A stretch of 22,788 nucleotides of DNA from a virus. A program made the translations under genes and the position numbers. This document shows positions 6,134 through 20,223 of the stretch, in pieces. Where the stretch lies: positions 1-22,788 of IMG/VR virus record IMGVR_UViG_3300037011_000080, one strand, 5' to 3'. The notes under the pieces were generated by a model, which did no database searches, was not told the origin of the DNA, and was given only the letters and a program-made list of their open reading frames with translations. Position 1 is the stretch's first letter. Each line of letters opens with the position of its first letter.

Positions 6134-8122
6134 TTATTGTCTTATTAGAAGTGAATCCCTTTTTAAAGGTATCTTAGTAGTTATTATACTATCTCCTATG
6201 TGTATAGTAGCAGTTAGTGGTTGTTCTGAATTAGATATAAACTTTTCTAATAACCCCTGTAGGGTTTTTAAATAATCGTCATCCATCTTGCTACGTTCAG
6301 AACCAGGAATACTTAATGATCTCATAGATCCTATCCTTTCCTGATTGTTATATATATATTCTATAGCAGCTACCCTAGCATTGGCATCAGCATAACCAGA
6401 GATAACGCTATTGTTTTCATTTAAAGCATCGGTATTATTATCTACTGATTTTTTATTACCATGTAAGGCATTTATGATAAGGTTTAGTAAACCTGGTATT
6501 ATAAATGATAATGCTATACCTACTGGACCACCCATAAAACCAACTGCTTTACCTAATACTCCACCACCTACCCTAGTTGCAAATTTAGCTCCTACTCCCA
6601 TAGCAGCACCAGCTGCAACCCCAGCAGCGGCTTTACTAACAAACCTACCAGTAGATTTATTATAGAATTTACCTGCAGCATTAACTCCTACTTCAGATCT
6701 TCTGCTAGCAGCTAATGGCCCAGCAATATTCATCGTACCTGCTGCTATATGGTATGCTCTAGCAGCTGCAGTCATTTTGGTATATCCTATTAAAGTTGAA
6801 GTAGTCATAAAAGCCATAGAACCCGCCATTTGTCTATGTATTAGTATGATGCCAGATAATACTGCCCTAAAAGCCATTGCTACGGTTTTAATAGCAATAA
6901 AACCTACTATAGCTGATGTAAGAAATTTATTTTTAGCAATAGCCGCTATACCCAATCCTATCCACCTTACGACCTCTAAAATACCTGTTAGTATGGGGGC
7001 TACTGATTTAGCAAGATTTTGACCTACTTGTTTCCAAGCGTTACCAGTCATCATTATCTGGGCTTTCAGAGTCTGCATCATCTGAGCTGTAGTATTAGTA
7101 GCGAAATCAGCAGACTTAGTGGAAACATCATTAGTGTATTGTTTTAACTGTTCTAGGTTCCTTAGGAATAGTGATGCTGATCTTTTACCTCTTACACCGA
7201 ATATAGCATTTAATACAGATTGCTTTTCAATACACATACCAGGACCAAATGTCCTATTAATAGCTTTACCCATATTCTCAAAGACTTCAACTACTGGCCG
7301 CATATTACCAGCAGAATCTTGAACGTCTTCCAGAGTCATGCCTATATCGGCAAGAGCTTTTTTCTGTTGACCAGTACCATACTTGCCAATTGCTCTACCC
7401 ATATATCTTAGAGCATTTTCTACTGCAACCCCAGCCATAGACCCCTTTAAACCAGCCTGACCTAATGTCATAATCATGCCTGTTACCTCTTCTATTTTAG
7501 CACCTACATCTATAGCAGTAGCACCAGCATATTTCATGGCTTCTGCTAAATCGGGCATATCTATAACTGAGGCATTTACAGCATAAGACATCATATTGGC
7601 AACTCTAGCAGACTCTGTAAAACTTAATTGCCATTGCTTCATTACACCAATCATCATATCTGTTGAAGATGCCAAATCAAAATCTGTAGATATGGCAAGT
7701 TCTATAGCTGACCTTATATTGGATAATGTTTCCTCGACACCCATACCAGCTTTCCCCATCTCTTTCATACCCGCAGCTACTTGATCTGCTGAAAAGAGAT
7801 ATTCATTAGAGAGTGATTGGGCATTTTTTATTAATTGTTCGTATTGTTTTCCCTGAGCTGAAGTTACAATTCCCGTGAATTCCATTTGATATTGGAACTC
7901 AGCCCCTTTCTTAATAGCTTTACCTAATCCAGCTAGAGCACCTGCCCCAATCATAGCCATACCTGCTGAAAGGTTACGGGTATATCTTAATTGATCATCA
8001 AACAGATCTTGAGCAGACTTCTTCATAGCATTAGAAGCTGCAGTTATTTTTGCTGCAGGTCCGGAAAACTCGTCCCTAAGGAACATAGTTAACCCTATAC
8101 CTAAATTAGAACTGCCTGTCAT
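6134..8122 (-). CDS. Tail tape measure protein
   Basis: A 662-residue protein, placed after the tail-assembly chaperone as usual. The N-terminus has the common M-F-L-R-D-E-F-S-G-P-A-A-K-I start, then long Ala/Met-rich helices. A conserved core around 90-330 (E-M-G-K-A-G-M, M-M-I-G-V-M-K-Q-W, A-M-K-Y-A-G, then F-G-V-R-G-K-R at about 312-318) matches the phage tape-measure family. Hydrophobic helices lie at about 375-425 and 525-555, which could cross the host inner membrane after ejection. Using the rough rule of 0.15 nm per residue, the tail would be near 100 nm. Its ATG overlaps the TGA of the chaperone frameshift product (ATGA). No muralytic domain is seen. Confidence 0.9.
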   Translation of the reverse strand: MTGSSNLGIGLTMFLRDEFSGPAAKITAASNAMKKSAQDLFDDQLRYTRNLSAGMAMIGAGALAGLGKAIKKGAEFQYQMEFTGIVTSAQGKQYEQLIKNAQSLSNEYLFSADQVAAGMKEMGKAGMGVEETLSNIRSAIELAISTDFDLASSTDMMIGVMKQWQLSFTESARVANMMSYAVNASVIDMPDLAEAMKYAGATAIDVGAKIEEVTGMIMTLGQAGLKGSMAGVAVENALRYMGRAIGKYGTGQQKKALADIGMTLEDVQDSAGNMRPVVEVFENMGKAINRTFGPGMCIEKQSVLNAIFGVRGKRSASLFLRNLEQLKQYTNDVSTKSADFATNTTAQMMQTLKAQIMMTGNAWKQVGQNLAKSVAPILTGILEVVRWIGLGIAAIAKNKFLTSAIVGFIAIKTVAMAFRAVLSGIILIHRQMAGSMAFMTTSTLIGYTKMTAAARAYHIAAGTMNIAGPLAASRRSEVGVNAAGKFYNKSTGRFVSKAAAGVAAGAAMGVGAKFATRVGGGVLGKAVGFMGGPVGIALSFIIPGLLNLIINALHGNKKSVDNNTDALNENNSVISGYADANARVAAIEYIYNNQERIGSMRSLSIPGSERSKMDDDYLKTLQGLLEKFISNSEQPLTATIHIGDSIITTKIPLKRDSLLIRQ

Positions 8123-8283
8123 TTCTTACTGATTTCCTTTTTTAGAAATTCCTGATACTGATCGCAAAGCTTTAGAAATTCTACCCTTTCCTTAACCGGT
8201 AAAGCTTTCCATTCTTTAAATGTAAGATGTAATTTATTTTGAGAAATATAAAAATATTCAGATTTTATATTTCTCGAGGAAAG
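8119..8283 (-). CDS. Frameshift extension of tail-assembly chaperone (gpGT-like T domain)
   Basis: In the -1 frame relative to the chaperone gene, 54 sense codons stay open from CTT at 8283 to TGA at 8119-8121. The TGA overlaps the tape-measure ATG. The extension begins L-S-S-R-N-I-K-S-E-Y and ends with a charged helical part containing T-F-K-E-W-K-A-L-P-V-K-E-R-V-E-F and C-D-Q-Y-Q-E-F-L-K-K. It has no start codon of its own that makes sense, and sits behind a U_UUU_UUC site and hairpin. The expected fusion has 258 residues from frame 0 plus 54 here, 312 in all. By analogy with lambda gpG/gpGT, the long form would bind the tape measure and recruit tube subunits during tail assembly. The frame is seen directly; expression is inferred. 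Confidence 0.8.
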   Translation of the reverse strand, partial: LSSRNIKSEYFYISQNKLHLTFKEWKALPVKERVEFLKLCDQYQEFLKKEISKK

Positions 8284-8289
8284 AAAAAA
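8241..8289 (-). promoter_or_regulatory. -1 programmed frameshift signal (slippery heptamer plus hairpin)
   Basis: The minus strand reads T_TTT_TTC at 8289-8283, in register with frame 0 (GAT TTT TTC), which fits the X_XXY_YYZ rule. After a 7-nt spacer (8282-8276) comes a perfect 13-bp stem: arm GAGAAATATAAAA (8275-8263), a 9-nt loop (8262-8254), and its complement (8253-8241). The frame-0 stop TAA (8267-8265) lies inside the first arm. This is the standard layout for -1 frameshifting in tail-assembly chaperone genes. Confidence 0.85.
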
Positions 8290-9056
8290 TCCGGCGTACC
8301 AACTATTAGGAATGGGATTTTATTATGAGTTATGGGATTTTCCAATTCGGTGGTAAGTTCTGTAGTGGCATCATTCTCTAATACCTCCTTTCGAATTTCT
8401 ACCATTTCAAGAGGATTAAAGTTTTTAAAATTTTCAACTTTTATCCATTTATTATCCAACCATAATTGAATATTACGAGCAAGTAATTCCTGATTCTTAC
8501 TTTGTAATAATGGGTCTAATGTTAAAAGGTATTTTTCACCATTCCCATTCATATAATCATACATAAGTTTTTTACCAGTAGCTATAATGAATTCTCTAGA
8601 GAAATCTTTTCCATACGTATGAGGTTTAATCCTATTTTCAAAATATCTAGGATCTTTCTTTTCAGAAGGGAAATCTGGTTTAGAATAATCCCAAATATAT
8701 TTTGCAAGGTCTTCCTCATATTCTACAGGTTCAACTATATCTTTCCATTGAAAAGAGAATTTCATTATTTGACCAAGAGAAAATATCCTACTAGCTATGA
8801 TGATAAAGTATTTATCGCATAATTTTAACCTTAAGATATCTTCTAAGCTAAGTTTACCAGTAACAGTTAAATCAGTATCTATTACTATACCGGAAACAAA
8901 TCTGTTTATAGATGTACCATCCTCAGACCCCACTGCATTAGAAATGACATCATCATCATCTCCATTTTGTTGTCTTAAGGTAACTTTAAATCCAGAAGGA
9001 GTTATGAGTTCTACTGTCTCTCCATAAAGTTCGTGAAGTTTTGTTGGGTCTTTCAT
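8265..9056 (-). CDS. Tail-assembly chaperone, frame-0 product (gpG-like)
   Basis: A 263-residue acidic protein between the tube gene and the tape measure, the usual place for tail-assembly chaperones. An early segment, residues about 15-30, reads V-E-L-I-T-P-S-G-F-K-V-T-L-R-Q, then Q-N-G-D-D-D-D; the rest is mostly helical with a long charged region and is not recognised by motif. The identification rests on position and on the -1 frameshift signal at its 3' end, where the sequence ...T-P-D-F-F can switch to the T-like extension. The frame-0 chain adds only F-P-R-E-I before TAA. It is the first gene after a terminator at about 9.1 kb and a promoter-like motif, so it likely starts a unit continuing through the tape measure and baseplate genes. 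It is larger than lambda gpG (140 residues). Confidence 0.75.
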   Translation of the reverse strand: MKDPTKLHELYGETVELITPSGFKVTLRQQNGDDDDVISNAVGSEDGTSINRFVSGIVIDTDLTVTGKLSLEDILRLKLCDKYFIIIASRIFSLGQIMKFSFQWKDIVEPVEYEEDLAKYIWDYSKPDFPSEKKDPRYFENRIKPHTYGKDFSREFIIATGKKLMYDYMNGNGEKYLLTLDPLLQSKNQELLARNIQLWLDNKWIKVENFKNFNPLEMVEIRKEVLENDATTELTTELENPITHNKIPFLIVGTPDFFFPREI

Positions 9057-9161: not shown

Positions 9162-9623
9162 TTAAATCCTCTGAAGTTTATCCACCGAAAATTCTATCGT
9201 TTCAATTGCATTTCCGGTATCAGCTCTGTTAAATTCAGCTGAAGTAAGTTTAGTTGGCCATACTCCAAATGCCAACCAAGTATTAAGTACTGTAACACCA
9301 TCTTCTGCCATCTCAGTAATCTGGATAGTCTTCTTGTAAATATCTGGAATAGCTCCACCACCAATAACAGAACTCTGACAGGTATCAAACCAAGCCCACA
9401 TATAATTATCCCCAGACCTTGAAGACATGAGTTTTTCTGCAACTATGTTTGCATAATCAACCCTACCTGCAGTTTTAATATCGTGGTTAGTATCACCATG
9501 TTTATCCTGTTCAATTGTGGAATCAATCCCATTAACCTTCTGAAATAAGAAGGGATTAATTGGGTCAGGAGTAATCTGTATTGACCAATTAAATTTTTTC
9601 CTTGGATTAGAAAATTTTGCCAT
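9162..9623 (-). CDS. Tail tube protein (T4 gp19-like)
   Basis: A 153-residue protein 19 bases after the sheath gene. It shows the T4 gp19/major tube family pattern: N-P-F-L-F-Q-K-V-N-G-I-D-S-T-I-E in the N-terminal third, Y-M-W-A-W-F-D-T-C in the middle, and a C-terminal W-P-T-K-L-T-S-A-E-F-N-R-A-D-T-G-N-A-I-E-T-I-E-F-S-V-D-K-L. The last segment is the hallmark where W-P-x-K and a late beta strand complete the ring fold. Length is close to the 150-165 typical of the family. Product: hexameric rings stacked inside the sheath to form the DNA channel. It shares a unit with the sheath and is followed by a strong terminator, as expected for abundant proteins. Confidence 0.92.
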   Translation of the reverse strand: MAKFSNPRKKFNWSIQITPDPINPFLFQKVNGIDSTIEQDKHGDTNHDIKTAGRVDYANIVAEKLMSSRSGDNYMWAWFDTCQSSVIGGGAIPDIYKKTIQITEMAEDGVTVLNTWLAFGVWPTKLTSAEFNRADTGNAIETIEFSVDKLQRI

Positions 9624-9642: not shown

Positions 9643-11166
9643 TTACGAAATATATACTCCTTCTCCCTGTACTAACATAAGGTTGAATGTAAGTTCCTGC
9701 ATTGATGGTATAGGCCATATTTTAAGGTTAATTTTGTATTTGCCATTCTGAACATCAACCTTATTGTTAATCTGTAAATCATCAAGAGTATCAGCATACT
9801 GATCACCATAATATTCATATTTGTATAAAGCACGATAATCTGGTGACATGAGTTTATCCAAGAATGGCTTAAGATGATAAAATATCTTCTTGAATGTGGG
9901 GGTATCATTTGGTTCTTCCAAATACTGTTCTAGTATAGGTTTTAAAATTCTTTTTAACCAGATGGTAAGGAAGGTAACACTTAAGAATTTCATCTGGTCA
10001 TTTGCCTGCTGACCAGAAAAATTACCTGAAATTTGAACAATACCATTTTTCTGGACCATCAAGTTAATCTGAGCATTTGCCAATTCATTAAGATCATTAA
10101 ATGAGGCTGGAGTTCCAAAATTATTAACTACCCCAAGTGCATCCTTAACTTGGCTTCTATTCCAACCAGCAAGAGAATACCAGGGGCCAAAATTATTGTG
10201 AACATAAGCTGCAACACCTAATATATCCCCCATTTCAGAAATAGAAGCTTCCACTAATGTCCTTTCCCTTCTTACCCTTATGCCACCTGCAAATATACCA
10301 AAATATGGGGAATTATTTGCTATTGATGTTCTTTCTCCAGTTAAAGTGGTTTTAGTTGTAAGTGAGTTTGAAAGATGAGCAAAAAATACCATATCCTGAC
10401 GGTTAGCTGCATAAGTTGCCCCACCTTGGTTAATTGCAGTAGTACTCATTTCTGGTACTGCAAGAATAAGGCAATCTTCTACATTATTAAACTTAGTCAT
10501 AGCTGCTGTATAATCAGAAGCAACATGACCTGAAGGATTAACCCCAGCAGTAAAAGCTGAAGCAGCTAAAACTGCCGGATACTGAAATGTGGCTGTAGAA
10601 GTATCAACATAGGTAAAATCAAGTAATTGAGACATAGATTTTACTTCATCCAATATGGTTTGAGCACTTGCAGGTCCATTAGTAAATTGAGGTAGGTTAA
10701 TGTAAGTCTCATTAAGATCGGGTTCAAGATCATGAGTAATTAACATATTCCAATACCCAGTTATACCATTGGAACCTGCAGTTATCTGGATCTTTATATT
10801 ATTGTAATCTGAACCATGATATTTAGGTTGAACAGAAAAAAGAGTTTTGGGTGAACCATCACTGTTTGATATATTTTTAGAAGATGCTTTTACAGCAGCA
10901 ACCGAAACTGCATTAGGGCGACATACTCTTAATCTAGCCCCCATAGCAAAAGCTCTTTTGCAGAGGAATGGGAAATCTGAAGTTGAATCTATCAGACCTC
11001 CAAATAGTCTTTCGAATTGTGACCAACTATTCATGATAAAAAGCTCAGGTGATTCAATAGGACCCCTTTTGGTAATTCCTATCACCCCGAATATAGCTGG
11101 TTGTGGATCAGAGATTCCAGGAGTAAAATTCTTTACATTAAACTGGACTTTAGCTGTGTTGGGCAT
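9643..11166 (-). CDS. Contractile tail sheath protein
   Basis: A 507-residue protein of the phage tail sheath family. The N-terminus reads F-T-P-G-I-S-D-P-Q-P-A-I-F-G-V-I-G-I-T-K-R-G-P (about 14-36), the usual start, followed by S-W-S-Q-F-E-R-L-F-G-G (47-57) and a F-L-C-K-R-A-F-A-M-G-A segment. In the C-terminal third are W-Y-S-L-A-G-W-N-R-S-Q and N-G-I-V-Q-I-S-G-N; the last 30 residues (I-N-L-K-I-W-P-I-P-S-M-Q-E-L) form the arm that interlocks neighbouring subunits. It is the clearest marker that this tail contracts. It starts a sheath-tube unit: a terminator and structured leader of about 100 bases precede it, and the start region is A/T-rich without a strong Shine-Dalgarno site. Confidence 0.95.
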   Translation of the reverse strand: MPNTAKVQFNVKNFTPGISDPQPAIFGVIGITKRGPIESPELFIMNSWSQFERLFGGLIDSTSDFPFLCKRAFAMGARLRVCRPNAVSVAAVKASSKNISNSDGSPKTLFSVQPKYHGSDYNNIKIQITAGSNGITGYWNMLITHDLEPDLNETYINLPQFTNGPASAQTILDEVKSMSQLLDFTYVDTSTATFQYPAVLAASAFTAGVNPSGHVASDYTAAMTKFNNVEDCLILAVPEMSTTAINQGGATYAANRQDMVFFAHLSNSLTTKTTLTGERTSIANNSPYFGIFAGGIRVRRERTLVEASISEMGDILGVAAYVHNNFGPWYSLAGWNRSQVKDALGVVNNFGTPASFNDLNELANAQINLMVQKNGIVQISGNFSGQQANDQMKFLSVTFLTIWLKRILKPILEQYLEEPNDTPTFKKIFYHLKPFLDKLMSPDYRALYKYEYYGDQYADTLDDLQINNKVDVQNGKYKINLKIWPIPSMQELTFNLMLVQGEGVYIS

Positions 11167-11313: not shown

Positions 11314-12924
11314 TTAATTAGAACCCATATCAACCACAGTGAGTATTCTTTCCGAGTCAGTAGAACCTCTCTGCTGAACTGTAGTACCACCGCTCCACCT
11401 GATTTTAACTGTAACAGAAGTTCCGGGAGTTACGGAAGCTATATGCTGAAATGACAGGTTGAAAGGTTGTCCTGAAGCATTGTATTGTTTTGATTTCCTT
11501 ACGTTACTTCCTGCAACATTTATAAATACTGTGTAGGTTACATTTGAAGTAGTATAGAAAGGAGCTGAAAACATTATGAATATATAATCTCCTTTGGGAG
11601 TTAATGTAACACTCATAGTTGTCATATCCCCTTCTGATGCTCCGCAGGTTATATCAGATGTCCCGGCAGTTATTGAAGGGGCAAGTTTAAGTTTCGACTT
11701 TGCATCCAACTGAGTCTGTATGGCTGATGTTACCCCATCGGTATAATTAAGTTCTGTTCCCGTAGAAGTAATGGTAGTACCACCAAGAGAAAATCCATCT
11801 GGAGCCTTAAGAAGCCCATTAACAGTAAGAGATTGGCTTGTTCCTGCAGCGGTCATTACCCCATAAAGTAAAGCATCTGCCTGCATACCTGCCACGCCAG
11901 TTCTATTATTTCCATAAGCATCAATAGCTAAAATTCCTTCCTGAGTGGTTAAATCCTTTCCGGCATAAGAACCAATTCCAATATTATCCCCACCAGTAGT
12001 TAGCGCAGCTAATGCGCCTGAACCTATTCCTATGTTACTACTCCCAGTTGTTAGAGATAGTACAGCACTTGATCCAATCGCTACATTATCAACAGCATAA
12101 GCTTGTGCTGAACCACTTATTGAAGAAAGGGCACCATTCCCCAATGCAGTATTTTGAGTAGAATAAGCATCATGTACTCCTGTAGAACCTCCTGCTCCTC
12201 TTCCAAAATATTCATTATACTTACCATCATTAGTAGTAGTTATGATTGGAGAAAGGAAAAACTGGGATTTCATCGAGGCATTAACTGTAAGATACTGATC
12301 TGCTCCACTATTAGTCATAATCCCATATATTAATCCCTCGTTCTGTATATCTGACAAACTTGATCTTCCATCTCCATAACCATCTATAATTAGTATACCA
12401 TCGCCTATAAATTGTTTACCGGCCTGTGGTCCTATTAATATATCTCTGGAATTTGTAGTTAACAGTGACCCTGCTTCCCATCCGAGAGCTACATTGACAC
12501 TCCCAGTTGTAAGGTTGCAAAGAGCATGAGAACCTAATGCCGCATTATAACTACCCGTAGTTACATCATCATATACATAAAGCCCAAGACCCGCATTGTA
12601 TTCTGCTGTTGTCGCATCAGATAATGTTAATATCCCAACAGAGGTATTCCCCTGTCCTGTAGTACCAGAACGTCCCGCATTTGTCCCAAATGTTTCATTA
12701 CCAGTACTCATTACAGAAGAAATTGTAGTAAAAGCCCCCGCCCCCGGAGTAACATTACCTACGGAACCATTAAATGTTCCGGTATAATCACCAGGTATAG
12801 GAGCAACGAGAGGCACATTATCTCTCATCTTCTCCATGATAGTTCGTCCGTCTTTCGGACCATCAAAGGCAGTGATCCCTATGAATATTGCCATTAGACA
12901 TAGGATTGTAAATAATTTTTTCAT
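11314..12924 (-). CDS. Fibre-like protein with N-terminal signal peptide
   Basis: A 536-residue protein. Residues 1-19 look like a classic signal peptide: M-K-K, a hydrophobic core L-F-T-I-L-C-L-M-A-I-F-I-G-I, then T-A before F-D-G; no lipobox cysteine follows. The rest is fibre-like: G-N-V-T-P-G-A-G-A-F-T-T-I (about 56-68), YadA-type beta-roll repeats such as N-T-S-V-G, Y-N-A-A-L-G-S-H-A-L, N-I-G-I-G-S-G-A-L and N-I-G-I-G-S-Y-A-G (about 90-335), then E-L-N-Y-T-D-G-V-T-S-A-I-Q-T-Q-L-D-A-K near 390, and a beta-rich C-terminal domain (about 420-536). By eye its base composition is less AT-rich than its upstream neighbour. A start at M30 would remove the signal peptide, but the first ATG begins such a typical signal that I keep it. 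It stands alone between gaps and has its own terminator. Function unknown: an exported adhesin or an extra virion fibre. Confidence 0.75.
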   Translation of the reverse strand: MKKLFTILCLMAIFIGITAFDGPKDGRTIMEKMRDNVPLVAPIPGDYTGTFNGSVGNVTPGAGAFTTISSVMSTGNETFGTNAGRSGTTGQGNTSVGILTLSDATTAEYNAGLGLYVYDDVTTGSYNAALGSHALCNLTTGSVNVALGWEAGSLLTTNSRDILIGPQAGKQFIGDGILIIDGYGDGRSSLSDIQNEGLIYGIMTNSGADQYLTVNASMKSQFFLSPIITTTNDGKYNEYFGRGAGGSTGVHDAYSTQNTALGNGALSSISGSAQAYAVDNVAIGSSAVLSLTTGSSNIGIGSGALAALTTGGDNIGIGSYAGKDLTTQEGILAIDAYGNNRTGVAGMQADALLYGVMTAAGTSQSLTVNGLLKAPDGFSLGGTTITSTGTELNYTDGVTSAIQTQLDAKSKLKLAPSITAGTSDITCGASEGDMTTMSVTLTPKGDYIFIMFSAPFYTTSNVTYTVFINVAGSNVRKSKQYNASGQPFNLSFQHIASVTPGTSVTVKIRWSGGTTVQQRGSTDSERILTVVDMGSN

Positions 12925-15705: not shown

Positions 15706-16941
15706 TTAATCTAATGAAGCCTTTATAGTATCATTCAGAGTAACTTTAATAACCTCGGGGTCATCATTTATAGTAACATTGATTTTCCCTAATACAGTTT
15801 TACCCTTAAATTCTGAAATTAAAGAACTTAGATTTATTAAATTTCCACTTAATAAAGTCTTACCAAATATACTACCTATTAAAAAACTAGGGGGTATCCA
15901 TAAACTAAGGTCACCAATTATTATAGATTCCCCGTTTATTTGACCAATAAGATTACCTTTCCCAGAAATAATCCCCTCAAGAATAGATTGTTCTCCTAAT
16001 TGACCTTTTAATTCTCCTTTTGCATTAATAGTAGCCTGAAGTAAAGAGAATAAATTAATAGAGGCTAATAAAGACCCCTTAGCCTTTAAAATTGGGCTAT
16101 TAGATGCAATGCCATTAGTTTGCCCAGATATAGAGGATTTCTTTATACTAAGAATACCAGCATTAGATGCAATACCAGAAGTAGAACCAATTAATTTACC
16201 CTTACTTTTAATTATACCAGCATTAGATGCAATACCAGAAGTAGAACCAATTAATTTACCCTTACTTTTAATTATACCAGCATTAGATGCAATACCAGAA
16301 GTAGAACCAATTAATTTACCCTTACTTTTAATTATACCAGCATTAGATGCAATACCAGAAGTTACACCTCTTAAGGCACTTGATGGTTTATCCGCAATTA
16401 TACCAGCATTAGATGCAATACCAGAAGTAGAACCAATTAATTTACCCTTACTTTTAATTATACCAGCATTAGATGCAATACCAGAAGTAGAACCAATTAA
16501 TTTACCCTTACTTTTAATTATACCAGCATTAGATGCAATACCAGAAGTAGAACCAATAAGTATACCCTTACTTTTAATTATACCAGCATTAGATGCAATA
16601 CCAGAAGTAGAACCAATAAGTATACCCTTACTTTTAATTATACCAGCATTAGATGCAATACCATTAGTTTGCCCAGATATAGGGGTATTCTTTATATGAA
16701 GAATACCAGCATTAGATGCAATACCAGAAGTAGAACCAATAAGTATACCCTTACTTTTAATTATACCAGCATTAGATGCAATACCAGAAGTAGAACCAAT
16801 TAATTTACCCTTACTTTTAATTATACCAGCATTAGATGCAATACCATTAGTTTGCCCAGATATAGAACTAACACTAACAGTGGATAGAGTTATATTAAAA
16901 CTGCTACCAGAATTCTTTAATATTATATCTGCAAATGCCAT
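15706..16941 (-). CDS. Repetitive protein with 20-residue G-I-A-S-N-A-G-I repeats
   Basis: A 411-residue protein. After about 28 leader residues come 13 repeats of 20-22 residues centred on T-S-G-I-A-S-N-A-G-I-I-K-S-K-G (the last reads S-P-I in place of A-G-I). A degenerate series follows with the same rhythm (G-K-G-N-L-I-G-Q-I-N-G), and a C-terminal part ends T-L-N-D-T-I-K-A-S-L-D. Regular Gly, Ile and Ser spacing suggests a beta-solenoid or a stacked fibrous shaft. No catalytic motif is seen. It sits 3 bases after the 643-codon gene, in the block between head and neck genes. Such repeats are found in phage virion proteins, but I cannot name the family. It may form head or neck fibres or a spacer element. 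Confidence 0.7.
   Translation of the reverse strand: MAFADIILKNSGSSFNITLSTVSVSSISGQTNGIASNAGIIKSKGKLIGSTSGIASNAGIIKSKGILIGSTSGIASNAGILHIKNTPISGQTNGIASNAGIIKSKGILIGSTSGIASNAGIIKSKGILIGSTSGIASNAGIIKSKGKLIGSTSGIASNAGIIKSKGKLIGSTSGIASNAGIIADKPSSALRGVTSGIASNAGIIKSKGKLIGSTSGIASNAGIIKSKGKLIGSTSGIASNAGIIKSKGKLIGSTSGIASNAGILSIKKSSISGQTNGIASNSPILKAKGSLLASINLFSLLQATINAKGELKGQLGEQSILEGIISGKGNLIGQINGESIIIGDLSLWIPPSFLIGSIFGKTLLSGNLINLSSLISEFKGKTVLGKINVTINDDPEVIKVTLNDTIKASLD
16094..16860 (-). repeat. Tandem 60-bp coding repeat, 13 copies
   Basis: A 60-bp unit whose core (plus strand accagcattagatgcaatac) occurs 12 times unchanged, plus one variant at the low-coordinate end (16094 onward). Units from 16201 and 16261 are identical over all 60 bases. 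Two kinds of insertion give unit lengths of 63 and 66 bp, always multiples of three. Linkers alternate among a few variants (K-G-K-L, K-G-I-L, S-G-Q-T-N). Confidence 0.95.
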
Positions 16942-18880: not shown

Positions 18881-19510
18881 TTATCTTTTTTTGAGCTCTG
18901 TATTCATATTAGCTATGGTATTATTATAAGAACGCATAGCTAATTTTTTAGCATCTTCTGATTTAAAATTAAGATCAGTATAAATATCATAAGATTTTAA
19001 TTCAATCTCAAAATCGCATTTTATAGGGTAATGGTCTAATTTACTATCAATTCTCCATTGCCTATTAAAATACATGAAGGTTTTTTCAGTTATAGCCCTT
19101 CTATGAGTAGGGTCACTCCAAGCTCTTTCTCCTTGATAGTATGGAGTTGTGAATTTTATAATACCACCAGGTTTAAGTATTCTATAAACCTCTTCCATAA
19201 AAAGGATTAACCCATCTGAAGGTTCCTCTAGATTTATTTTATTAACCATAAATTTTAATTGGTCAAAATTATCAGCTACCTGGATTATTCTGATTAATTT
19301 ACGAATATAGGTTTCTGTGGGAATATGCTCAATATAATGTTGGCAAATTATTTCTTCTGCACTATCATTATCTATAGGCCAGGGGAAATCTTCAAGATTA
19401 ATAATAAAATCTGCATCTGAGTTTGGTTCTTTATCTATATTAATAAAGCCTTTTATTTTCTCTTTGCCACTGGCTAAATGCAATTTTGGAGAATTTATAG
19501 ATGTAAACAT
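18881..19510 (-). CDS. SAM-dependent methyltransferase-like protein
   Basis: A 209-residue protein with the class I methyltransferase layout. Motif I region is K-L-H-L-A-S-G-K-E (9-17), followed by G-F-I-N-I-D-K-E (21-28) with the acidic residue that binds the SAM ribose. Next come D-F-P-W-P-I-D-N-D-S (41-50), H-Y-I-E-H-I (58-63), the R-I-L-K-P-G-G-I-I-K-F motif (110-120), and D-P-T-H-R-R (133-138). This matches predicted small-molecule or sugar methyltransferases more than DNA methyltransferases, as no D/N-P-P-Y motif is present. Residues 64-100 are an extra helical insertion. It starts 2 bases after the glycosyltransferase-like gene, so the pair is co-translated and may act on one product. 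Confidence 0.72.
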   Translation of the reverse strand: MFTSINSPKLHLASGKEKIKGFINIDKEPNSDADFIINLEDFPWPIDNDSAEEIICQHYIEHIPTETYIRKLIRIIQVADNFDQLKFMVNKINLEEPSDGLILFMEEVYRILKPGGIIKFTTPYYQGERAWSDPTHRRAITEKTFMYFNRQWRIDSKLDHYPIKCDFEIELKSYDIYTDLNFKSEDAKKLAMRSYNNTIANMNTELKKR

Positions 19511-19512
19511 AA

Positions 19513-20223
19513 TTATAACTTTTTATCGAACCCATAGACAAATCCCGCTATATTCCATATTTTAATGGCTTCCTCCATTTTCTGTCTTTTAATATCATTA
19601 GACATCATAAAACCATGTACCACAAAACCCATACCCTTAAAAGCCGGTATATCATCCCTAACATCTTGTAATTTTATGGTTTTTAACCCAAATCTTGATA
19701 CATTATTTGTAAGAGCAAAATCATCTACAAAATGTTCTGACCTAAGTCCAAAATTCATTTCTTCGTGAGTGGGGTTAATATAATCTATAGCTTCTTCAGG
19801 AGTAATATCTAAAGGTCTCCAAAGATCAAGACACCAATCTGAAGCTATTGTGAACCAATTAGCAGATCCCCATCCTCTTCCATCTCTTAGCATATACTCA
19901 TTAAAACGATGACGAACACTAGATACATCACTACCCCAATGTGCAATTGTATCTTTCTTCATATAGATAGTCCAATCCGGCATACAAGGGTGAATCATAG
20001 CATCTGCATCAAAAAAGAAATTCCAATCATTACTCATTTGTTTTGCTAACTCATAAATTTGCAATTTCTCATACGTCACAGGCCAATCAGGAAACTTCCT
20101 TTCTGTTATTTCAAAAAAGTCAGCCCCAATCTTATGGGCATAAATTTTCATAAGGGGGTAGGTAATTGCTGTAAGTTCTGGAGCATAATTACCTATGTTC
20201 AAGGTAAAAATAGTTTTTTTCAT
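19513..20223 (-). CDS. GT-A-fold glycosyltransferase-like protein
   Basis: A 236-residue protein resembling compact GT-A glycosyltransferases such as the GT8/GT34 groups. K-L-Q-I-Y-E-L at 53-59 precedes W-N-F-F-F-D-A-D-A-M-I (67-77), which holds the D-x-D metal and nucleotide-sugar site at 72-74. G-W-G-S-A-N-W-F (117-124) may be the acceptor loop, and H-F-V-D-D-F-A (164-170) and V-V-H-G-F (201-205) supply late acidic and histidine residues typical of the fold. Substrate and acceptor are unknown. It is the first gene after a terminator, with a promoter-like motif and AAAGGTG just before the ATG. The setting in a virion cassette suggests glycosylation of capsid, fibre or host surface. The fold call is from motif pattern. 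Confidence 0.7.
   Translation of the reverse strand: MKKTIFTLNIGNYAPELTAITYPLMKIYAHKIGADFFEITERKFPDWPVTYEKLQIYELAKQMSNDWNFFFDADAMIHPCMPDWTIYMKKDTIAHWGSDVSSVRHRFNEYMLRDGRGWGSANWFTIASDWCLDLWRPLDITPEEAIDYINPTHEEMNFGLRSEHFVDDFALTNNVSRFGLKTIKLQDVRDDIPAFKGMGFVVHGFMMSNDIKRQKMEEAIKIWNIAGFVYGFDKKL

Follow-up and report, generated by a model that had tools for sequence, protein, structure and literature searches.

Evidence for a -1 programmed ribosomal frameshift in the tail-assembly chaperone gene of a contractile-tailed phage

Introduction

The tail-assembly chaperone gene of a contractile-tailed phage almost certainly carries a -1 programmed ribosomal frameshift module, by which a 312-residue long form would be made in addition to a 263-residue short form. 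The module was studied in a 22.8-kb virus fragment with a GC content of 34.6%, and the whole analysed stretch of 22,788 nucleotides is referred to here as the window. The slippery signal is conserved in relatives, the downstream hairpin shows covariation, the -1 frame is coding, and the gene order around the site is that of tailed-phage chaperone loci. Taken together, the locus is convincingly an ordinary member of the G/GT (TAC-N/TAC-NC) class of -1 frameshifts. In addition, the chaperone is distantly related to gp26 of phage T4. The site, its conservation, the competing explanations and the protein family are discussed below.

Gene neighbourhood and phage type

On the minus strand of the window, the tail genes follow each other in the order sheath, tail tube, chaperone and tape measure, after which a protein without assignment is found. 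The neighbours of the chaperone gene are:

9643..11166, minus strand: tail sheath protein, indicating a contractile tail (phrog_23, 7e-29)
9162..9623, minus strand: gp19-like tail tube protein, immediately upstream of the chaperone (PF06841, 1e-19)
6134..8122, minus strand: tail tape measure protein, 662 aa (PF10145, 3e-32; phrog_28, 3e-46)

Further along the same strand are a LysM baseplate protein, a hub-like protein and a gpV-type baseplate protein (PF04717), and this order of sheath, tube and baseplate genes indicates a contractile-tailed phage. The 263-aa ORF between the tube and tape measure genes occupies the usual place of tail-assembly chaperones. The initial annotation had described the layout as G/GT-type, and this agrees with the domain matches: the chaperone gene lies between the tube (PF06841) and the tape measure (PF10145), with a short extension that ends at the tape-measure start. 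A Bacteroidota-like host is suggested by the gene starts of the window, which are A-rich and for the most part have no Shine-Dalgarno sequence.

Other features of the window were also observed. A 411-aa protein (15706-16941, minus strand) is encoded by a 60-bp unit (GIASNAGIIKSKGKLIGSTS) repeated about 11 times and has no Pfam match. In the tail gene cluster, a 536-aa protein (11314-12924, minus strand), also without a Pfam match, has an N-terminus that resembles a signal peptide (MKKLFTILCLMAIFIGITAFD) and contains GxxNxAIG-type repeats similar to the ones in the tail fibre at 2-2473. Two proteins encoded at 18881-20223 on the minus strand, within the structural gene cluster, look by eye like a methyltransferase and a glycosyltransferase, and no Pfam match was obtained for this pair at a threshold of 0.01.

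The frameshift site

The elements of the site, in the direction of translation, are as follows:

8265..9056, minus strand: chaperone frame-0 ORF, the TAC-N short form, 263 aa, ending in GTPDFFFPREI*
8283..8289, minus strand: slippery heptamer T_TTT_TTC, which starts at the third base of a codon and is thus in frame-0 register
8276..8282, minus strand: 7-nt spacer TTTCCTC, with the same spacing in the close clade
8241..8275, minus strand: stimulatory hairpin with a perfect 13-bp stem and a 9-nt loop, from sequence, folding and covariation
8275-8263 and 8253-8241, minus strand: the two stem arms, GAGAAATATAAAA and TTTTATATTTCTC
8265..8267, minus strand: frame-0 stop TAA, located within the 5' stem arm
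8122..8283, minus strand: -1 frame extension (T, or TAC-C), 54 codons
8119..8121, minus strand: -1 frame stop TGA, overlapping the tape-measure ATG (8122-8120)

When the window was re-read, the heptamer, spacer, stem, loop, buried frame-0 stop and TGA/ATG overlap were each found where the initial annotation had placed them. The lengths that it had given for the extension and the fusion were also correct, since the 54 residues read after a -1 slip (LSSRNIKSEYFYISQNKLHLTFKEWKALPVKERVEFLKLCDQYQEFLKKEISKK) follow 258 residues of the upstream frame and give a predicted long form of 312 residues. The -1 frame of the extension contains no ATG, GTG or TTG in the window, and the same is true of most close relatives; normal initiation of the extension on its own is therefore not expected.

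The combination of a heptamer and a stem of at least 12 bp at a distance of 5-9 nt occurs only once in the window. Order-1 Markov windows contain a mean of 0.33 such sites, in a count that disregards register, the presence of a stop nearby and whether the -1 frame is open. It is the conservation of the heptamer and the frame across relatives that removes chance as an explanation of the site.

Conservation of the heptamer and the -1 frame

Relatives at 28-67% identity were collected from scans of IMG/VR, prokaryote genomes and GenBank phages. Loci that are identical around the site were counted once, as were three that are near-identical; loci that end before the site were excluded, leaving 65 distinct relatives. 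The -1 extension is present in all 65, and 61 of them have an in-register T_TTT_TTN heptamer (T_TTT_TTC, T_TTT_TTT or T_TTT_TTA). At one locus (L029) the contig ends within the extension, with the frame still open there. The other four relatives (L058, L060, L061 and L064) have kept the extension, with the heptamer replaced by T_TTC_TAC in L058 and L061 and by T_TTC_TTC or T_TTT_TAC in the other two; these noncanonical sites seem to allow re-pairing of the P-site tRNA only. The position of the frame-0 stop is also well kept: in 41/48 loci, it follows the start of the heptamer by 22 nt.

The reading frames were compared over the 2,266 codons between the frame-0 stop and the -1 stop of 48 loci, window included. 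No stop codon occurs in the -1 frame, whereas frame 0 has 145 and frame +1 has 250. The extension shows a codon-position pattern of 0.42, 0.32 and 0.60, and in the close clade its pN is 0.36 against a pS of 0.79, with most pairs saturated at synonymous sites. Together, this pattern and the excess of pS over pN point to purifying selection on the protein of the -1 frame. Conservation of the extension starts at the slip site itself (FFLS..), within the upstream ORF. The comparison of homologues proposed in the initial annotation thus showed a conserved heptamer and a -1 frame that is never broken, and a hairpin that is conserved in the closer clade.

In public phage records that contain relatives, the module lacks annotation or bears an unrelated call. 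By eye, two relatives (L028 and L034) have a Cys-rich, HNH- or zinc-ribbon-like ORF between the extension stop and the tape measure gene.

Stability and covariation of the hairpin

The hairpin folds at -12.5 kcal/mol, compared with a mean of -2.9 for dinucleotide shuffles (z -5.54), and none of the 200 shuffles was as stable. Across 25 sequences whose alignment from the heptamer onwards is gap-free, 84.9% of the stem cells are paired, compared with 79.2% in shuffles; the observed figure is flattering because these sequences were picked partly for a visible stem. Compensatory change on both sides was observed for 8 of the 13 pairs, where 3.1 were expected, and none of five covariation measures was reached in 500 shuffles of this set. 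Sliding the partner strand by 1-3 columns lowered pairing to 27-63%.

Across all 39 gapless loci, the pairing score of 404 exceeds the maximum of 400 in 5,000 whole-arm shuffles. For the 18 closest loci the same shuffle gave a weaker result, with 217 against a mean of 211 and a maximum of 219. The stem at the window spacing is clear in the close clade and weak, shifted or unclear in many distant relatives, and the heptamer and extension are therefore more universal than the exact hairpin.

Alternative explanations

Multiple other explanations of these elements can be considered. Slippage could occur during transcription, with RNA polymerase adding a base at the T run so that some mRNAs encode the long form directly. 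There is a T run at the site, of 6 T and in a few relatives of 8, but it is mostly just 6 T, which is short for polymerase slippage, and the four relatives with interrupted or shorter runs (TTTCTAC, TTTCTTC and TTTTTAC) keep the extension. Furthermore, ribosomal slippage requires a hairpin at ribosome spacing downstream of the site, and such a hairpin is conserved here. The short and sometimes interrupted run and the conserved hairpin together make transcriptional slippage very unlikely.

The extension could also be a separate small gene that is translated by re-initiation after the frame-0 stop. An open frame does lie between the two genes, and the best match of the extension model is a 47-aa stand-alone protein (A0A8S5VPS8), so annotators may call a separate ORF elsewhere. 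This reading leaves the slip site and hairpin unexplained, conservation begins inside the upstream ORF, and it was rejected because the extension has no in-frame start codon; its probability is put at next to nothing. The least probable explanation, which can hardly be entertained, is that the hairpin acts as a transcription terminator or a processing site, with the frame being open by accident. A strong hairpin at the end of a gene would fit such a role, but this one is located within the coding sequence of the extension, a search for terminator-like sites gave none, and the candidate was rejected because no T run follows the hairpin on its 3' side. The purifying selection on the -1 frame largely refutes it.

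Proposed mechanism

In the ribosomal frameshift that is preferred here, the majority of ribosomes would stop at TAA 8267-8265 and release the 263-aa short chaperone (TAC-N). A minority would pause at the hairpin while tRNA-Phe on TTT_TTC re-pairs one base back, and these slipped ribosomes would continue through the extension and produce the 312-residue long form (TAC-NC). Judging from lambda gpG/gpGT, the shared part may coat the tape measure protein and the extension may recruit tail-tube subunits, and both forms would be expected to be absent from the virion. The slippage, the ratio of short to long form, for which the initial annotation had proposed a low fixed value, and the division of labour between the two forms are inferred.

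The chaperone family

Pfam and PHROGs searches gave no informative match for the chaperone or the extension of the window, and weak matches to PF12322 and phrog_150 were found in some relatives. None of 16 family members matched a Pfam model of P2 gpE, and a sequence search of the PDB with the family profile returned nothing meaningful. An AlphaFold2 model of the 263-aa chaperone, built with 48 aligned relatives, has a pLDDT of 93. When this model was compared with the PDB using VIA-align, the top three matches were RBSTP2171 (Z 6.7), the HK97 tail assembly chaperone (Z 5.7) and YqbN (Z 5.4), all of modest Z and covering the first ~100 residues only, with the next row at Z 3.6. RBSTP2171 is a Bacillus stearothermophilus protein titled uncharacterised in the PDB; it and YqbN are presumably prophage chaperone-type proteins. 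The best PDB match with Foldseek was again the HK97 chaperone, at a non-significant E of 0.37.

Among the predicted viral proteins of BFVD, whole-chain fold matches of 1e-12 to 1e-5 were obtained. Several of these are named baseplate hub (assembly) protein, T4-like, which is the gp26/gp51 group. Alignment of the chaperone family with nine gp26 sequences using hhalign gave a score of 44.3 (E 7.6e-6), whereas 100 column-shuffled controls reached at most 25.5, and the gp26 profile alignment stops at the same terminal FF motif. Both the profile comparison and the predicted fold identify the 263-aa protein as distantly related to T4 gp26; it is not a demonstrable homologue of lambda gpG.

The extension

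The extension is predicted to form three helices (pLDDT 88). The initial annotation had called it T-like; its position and the logic of the module support this name, whereas neither chaperone nor extension has a Pfam or PHROG chaperone family match that would. No match at E 0.001 or better was found for the model with Foldseek, the best being the above-mentioned 47-aa phage protein from BFVD at E 0.04. By eye, the extension resembles the tail of T4 gp51. In hhalign and hmmsearch comparisons the two align at the right place with a score no better than that of shuffles. With the same programs and shuffled controls, comparisons with the short gp51-like ORF of phage Melnitz and with the extension of Bacillus phage SP-15 were non-significant.

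SP-15 itself (KT624200; L117:35640-35950) encodes a gp26-like 'baseplate hub subunit' that ends in ..EFFHARFDD*. Starting at TTT_TTT_C, its +1 frame stays open across the annotated 39-aa ORF SP15_046 and nearly to the tape measure gene, and this looks like a +1 frameshift extension without annotation.

Significance

The corrected gene model has a joined product of 312 residues and closes the gap before the tape measure gene; in public relatives of the phage family this region is left blank or is mis-annotated. The relatives also make up a deep natural alignment in which a slip site is followed by a covarying hairpin. Through its distant relationship to T4 gp26, the family ties chaperones made by frameshifting to the two-gene arrangement of T4, and this bears on the evolution of chaperones with two forms. 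A broader proposal can be put forward tentatively, with somewhat less than even confidence: T4-gp26-type chaperones would include a widespread family, so far undescribed, in which the long form arises by -1 frameshifting and not from separate genes 26 and 51 as in T4. If so, the family could show the frameshift state from which a T4-like gene pair was derived, and its members with sites of the T_TTC_TAC type would be natural cases of P-site-only slippage.

Comparison with known systems

Frameshift-made chaperones are already well known in tailed phages, and the window locus adds one more. In lambda, gpG/gpGT are produced by a -1 frameshift whose mechanism is described in PMC5009743 (citing Levin 1993; Xu 2004, 2013, 2014). 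As in lambda, the gene in the window is directly upstream of the tape measure gene and the predicted longer form, a minor product, has a small C-terminal domain. The lambda tail is flexible, whereas that of the window phage is contractile, and the window differs further in its T_TTT_TTC site, its clear downstream hairpin and, unlike gpG, a protein without a match to the Pfam or PHROGs chaperone families.

Phage P2 makes E/E+E' by a -1 shift at a T6G site (PMC3931495, describing Christie 2002). It shares with the window phage a contractile tail, a -1 shift at a six-T run (T6G in P2, T6C in the window) and an extension frame that overlaps the start of the next gene, which in P2 is T. Unlike the P2 protein, the window chaperone has 263 aa and no Pfam chaperone-family match, and the P2 extension has a possible GUG start, whereas the window extension has no in-frame start. 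The myophage Adele of Pseudomonas (Vandenendeviridae/Andersonviridae) was reported in 2025 to have a chaperone with a conserved -1 frameshift, on the same kind of evidence (PMC12846349). It resembles the window in its T-rich site and in a -1 frame that is always open ahead of the tape measure gene, and differs in its GTTTTT motif and its phage lineage; the likeness drawn here is one of layout. Prediction tools have already been aimed at this class of frameshifted chaperone genes (PMC10274946).

The less ordinary aspect is the link of the family to T4 gp26, given that gp26 and gp51 are encoded in T4 by separate genes on opposite strands. Work by Vladimirov, Gautam and Davidson from 2022 on the T4 gp26/gp51 chaperones reportedly concerns, as its title suggests, a mechanism other than frameshifting. 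The long form in the window needs a frameshift, whereas T4 pairs gp26 with the separate gene 51. The two systems are alike in the profile match that ends at the same FF and in the whole-chain folds that match gp26/gp51-type proteins.
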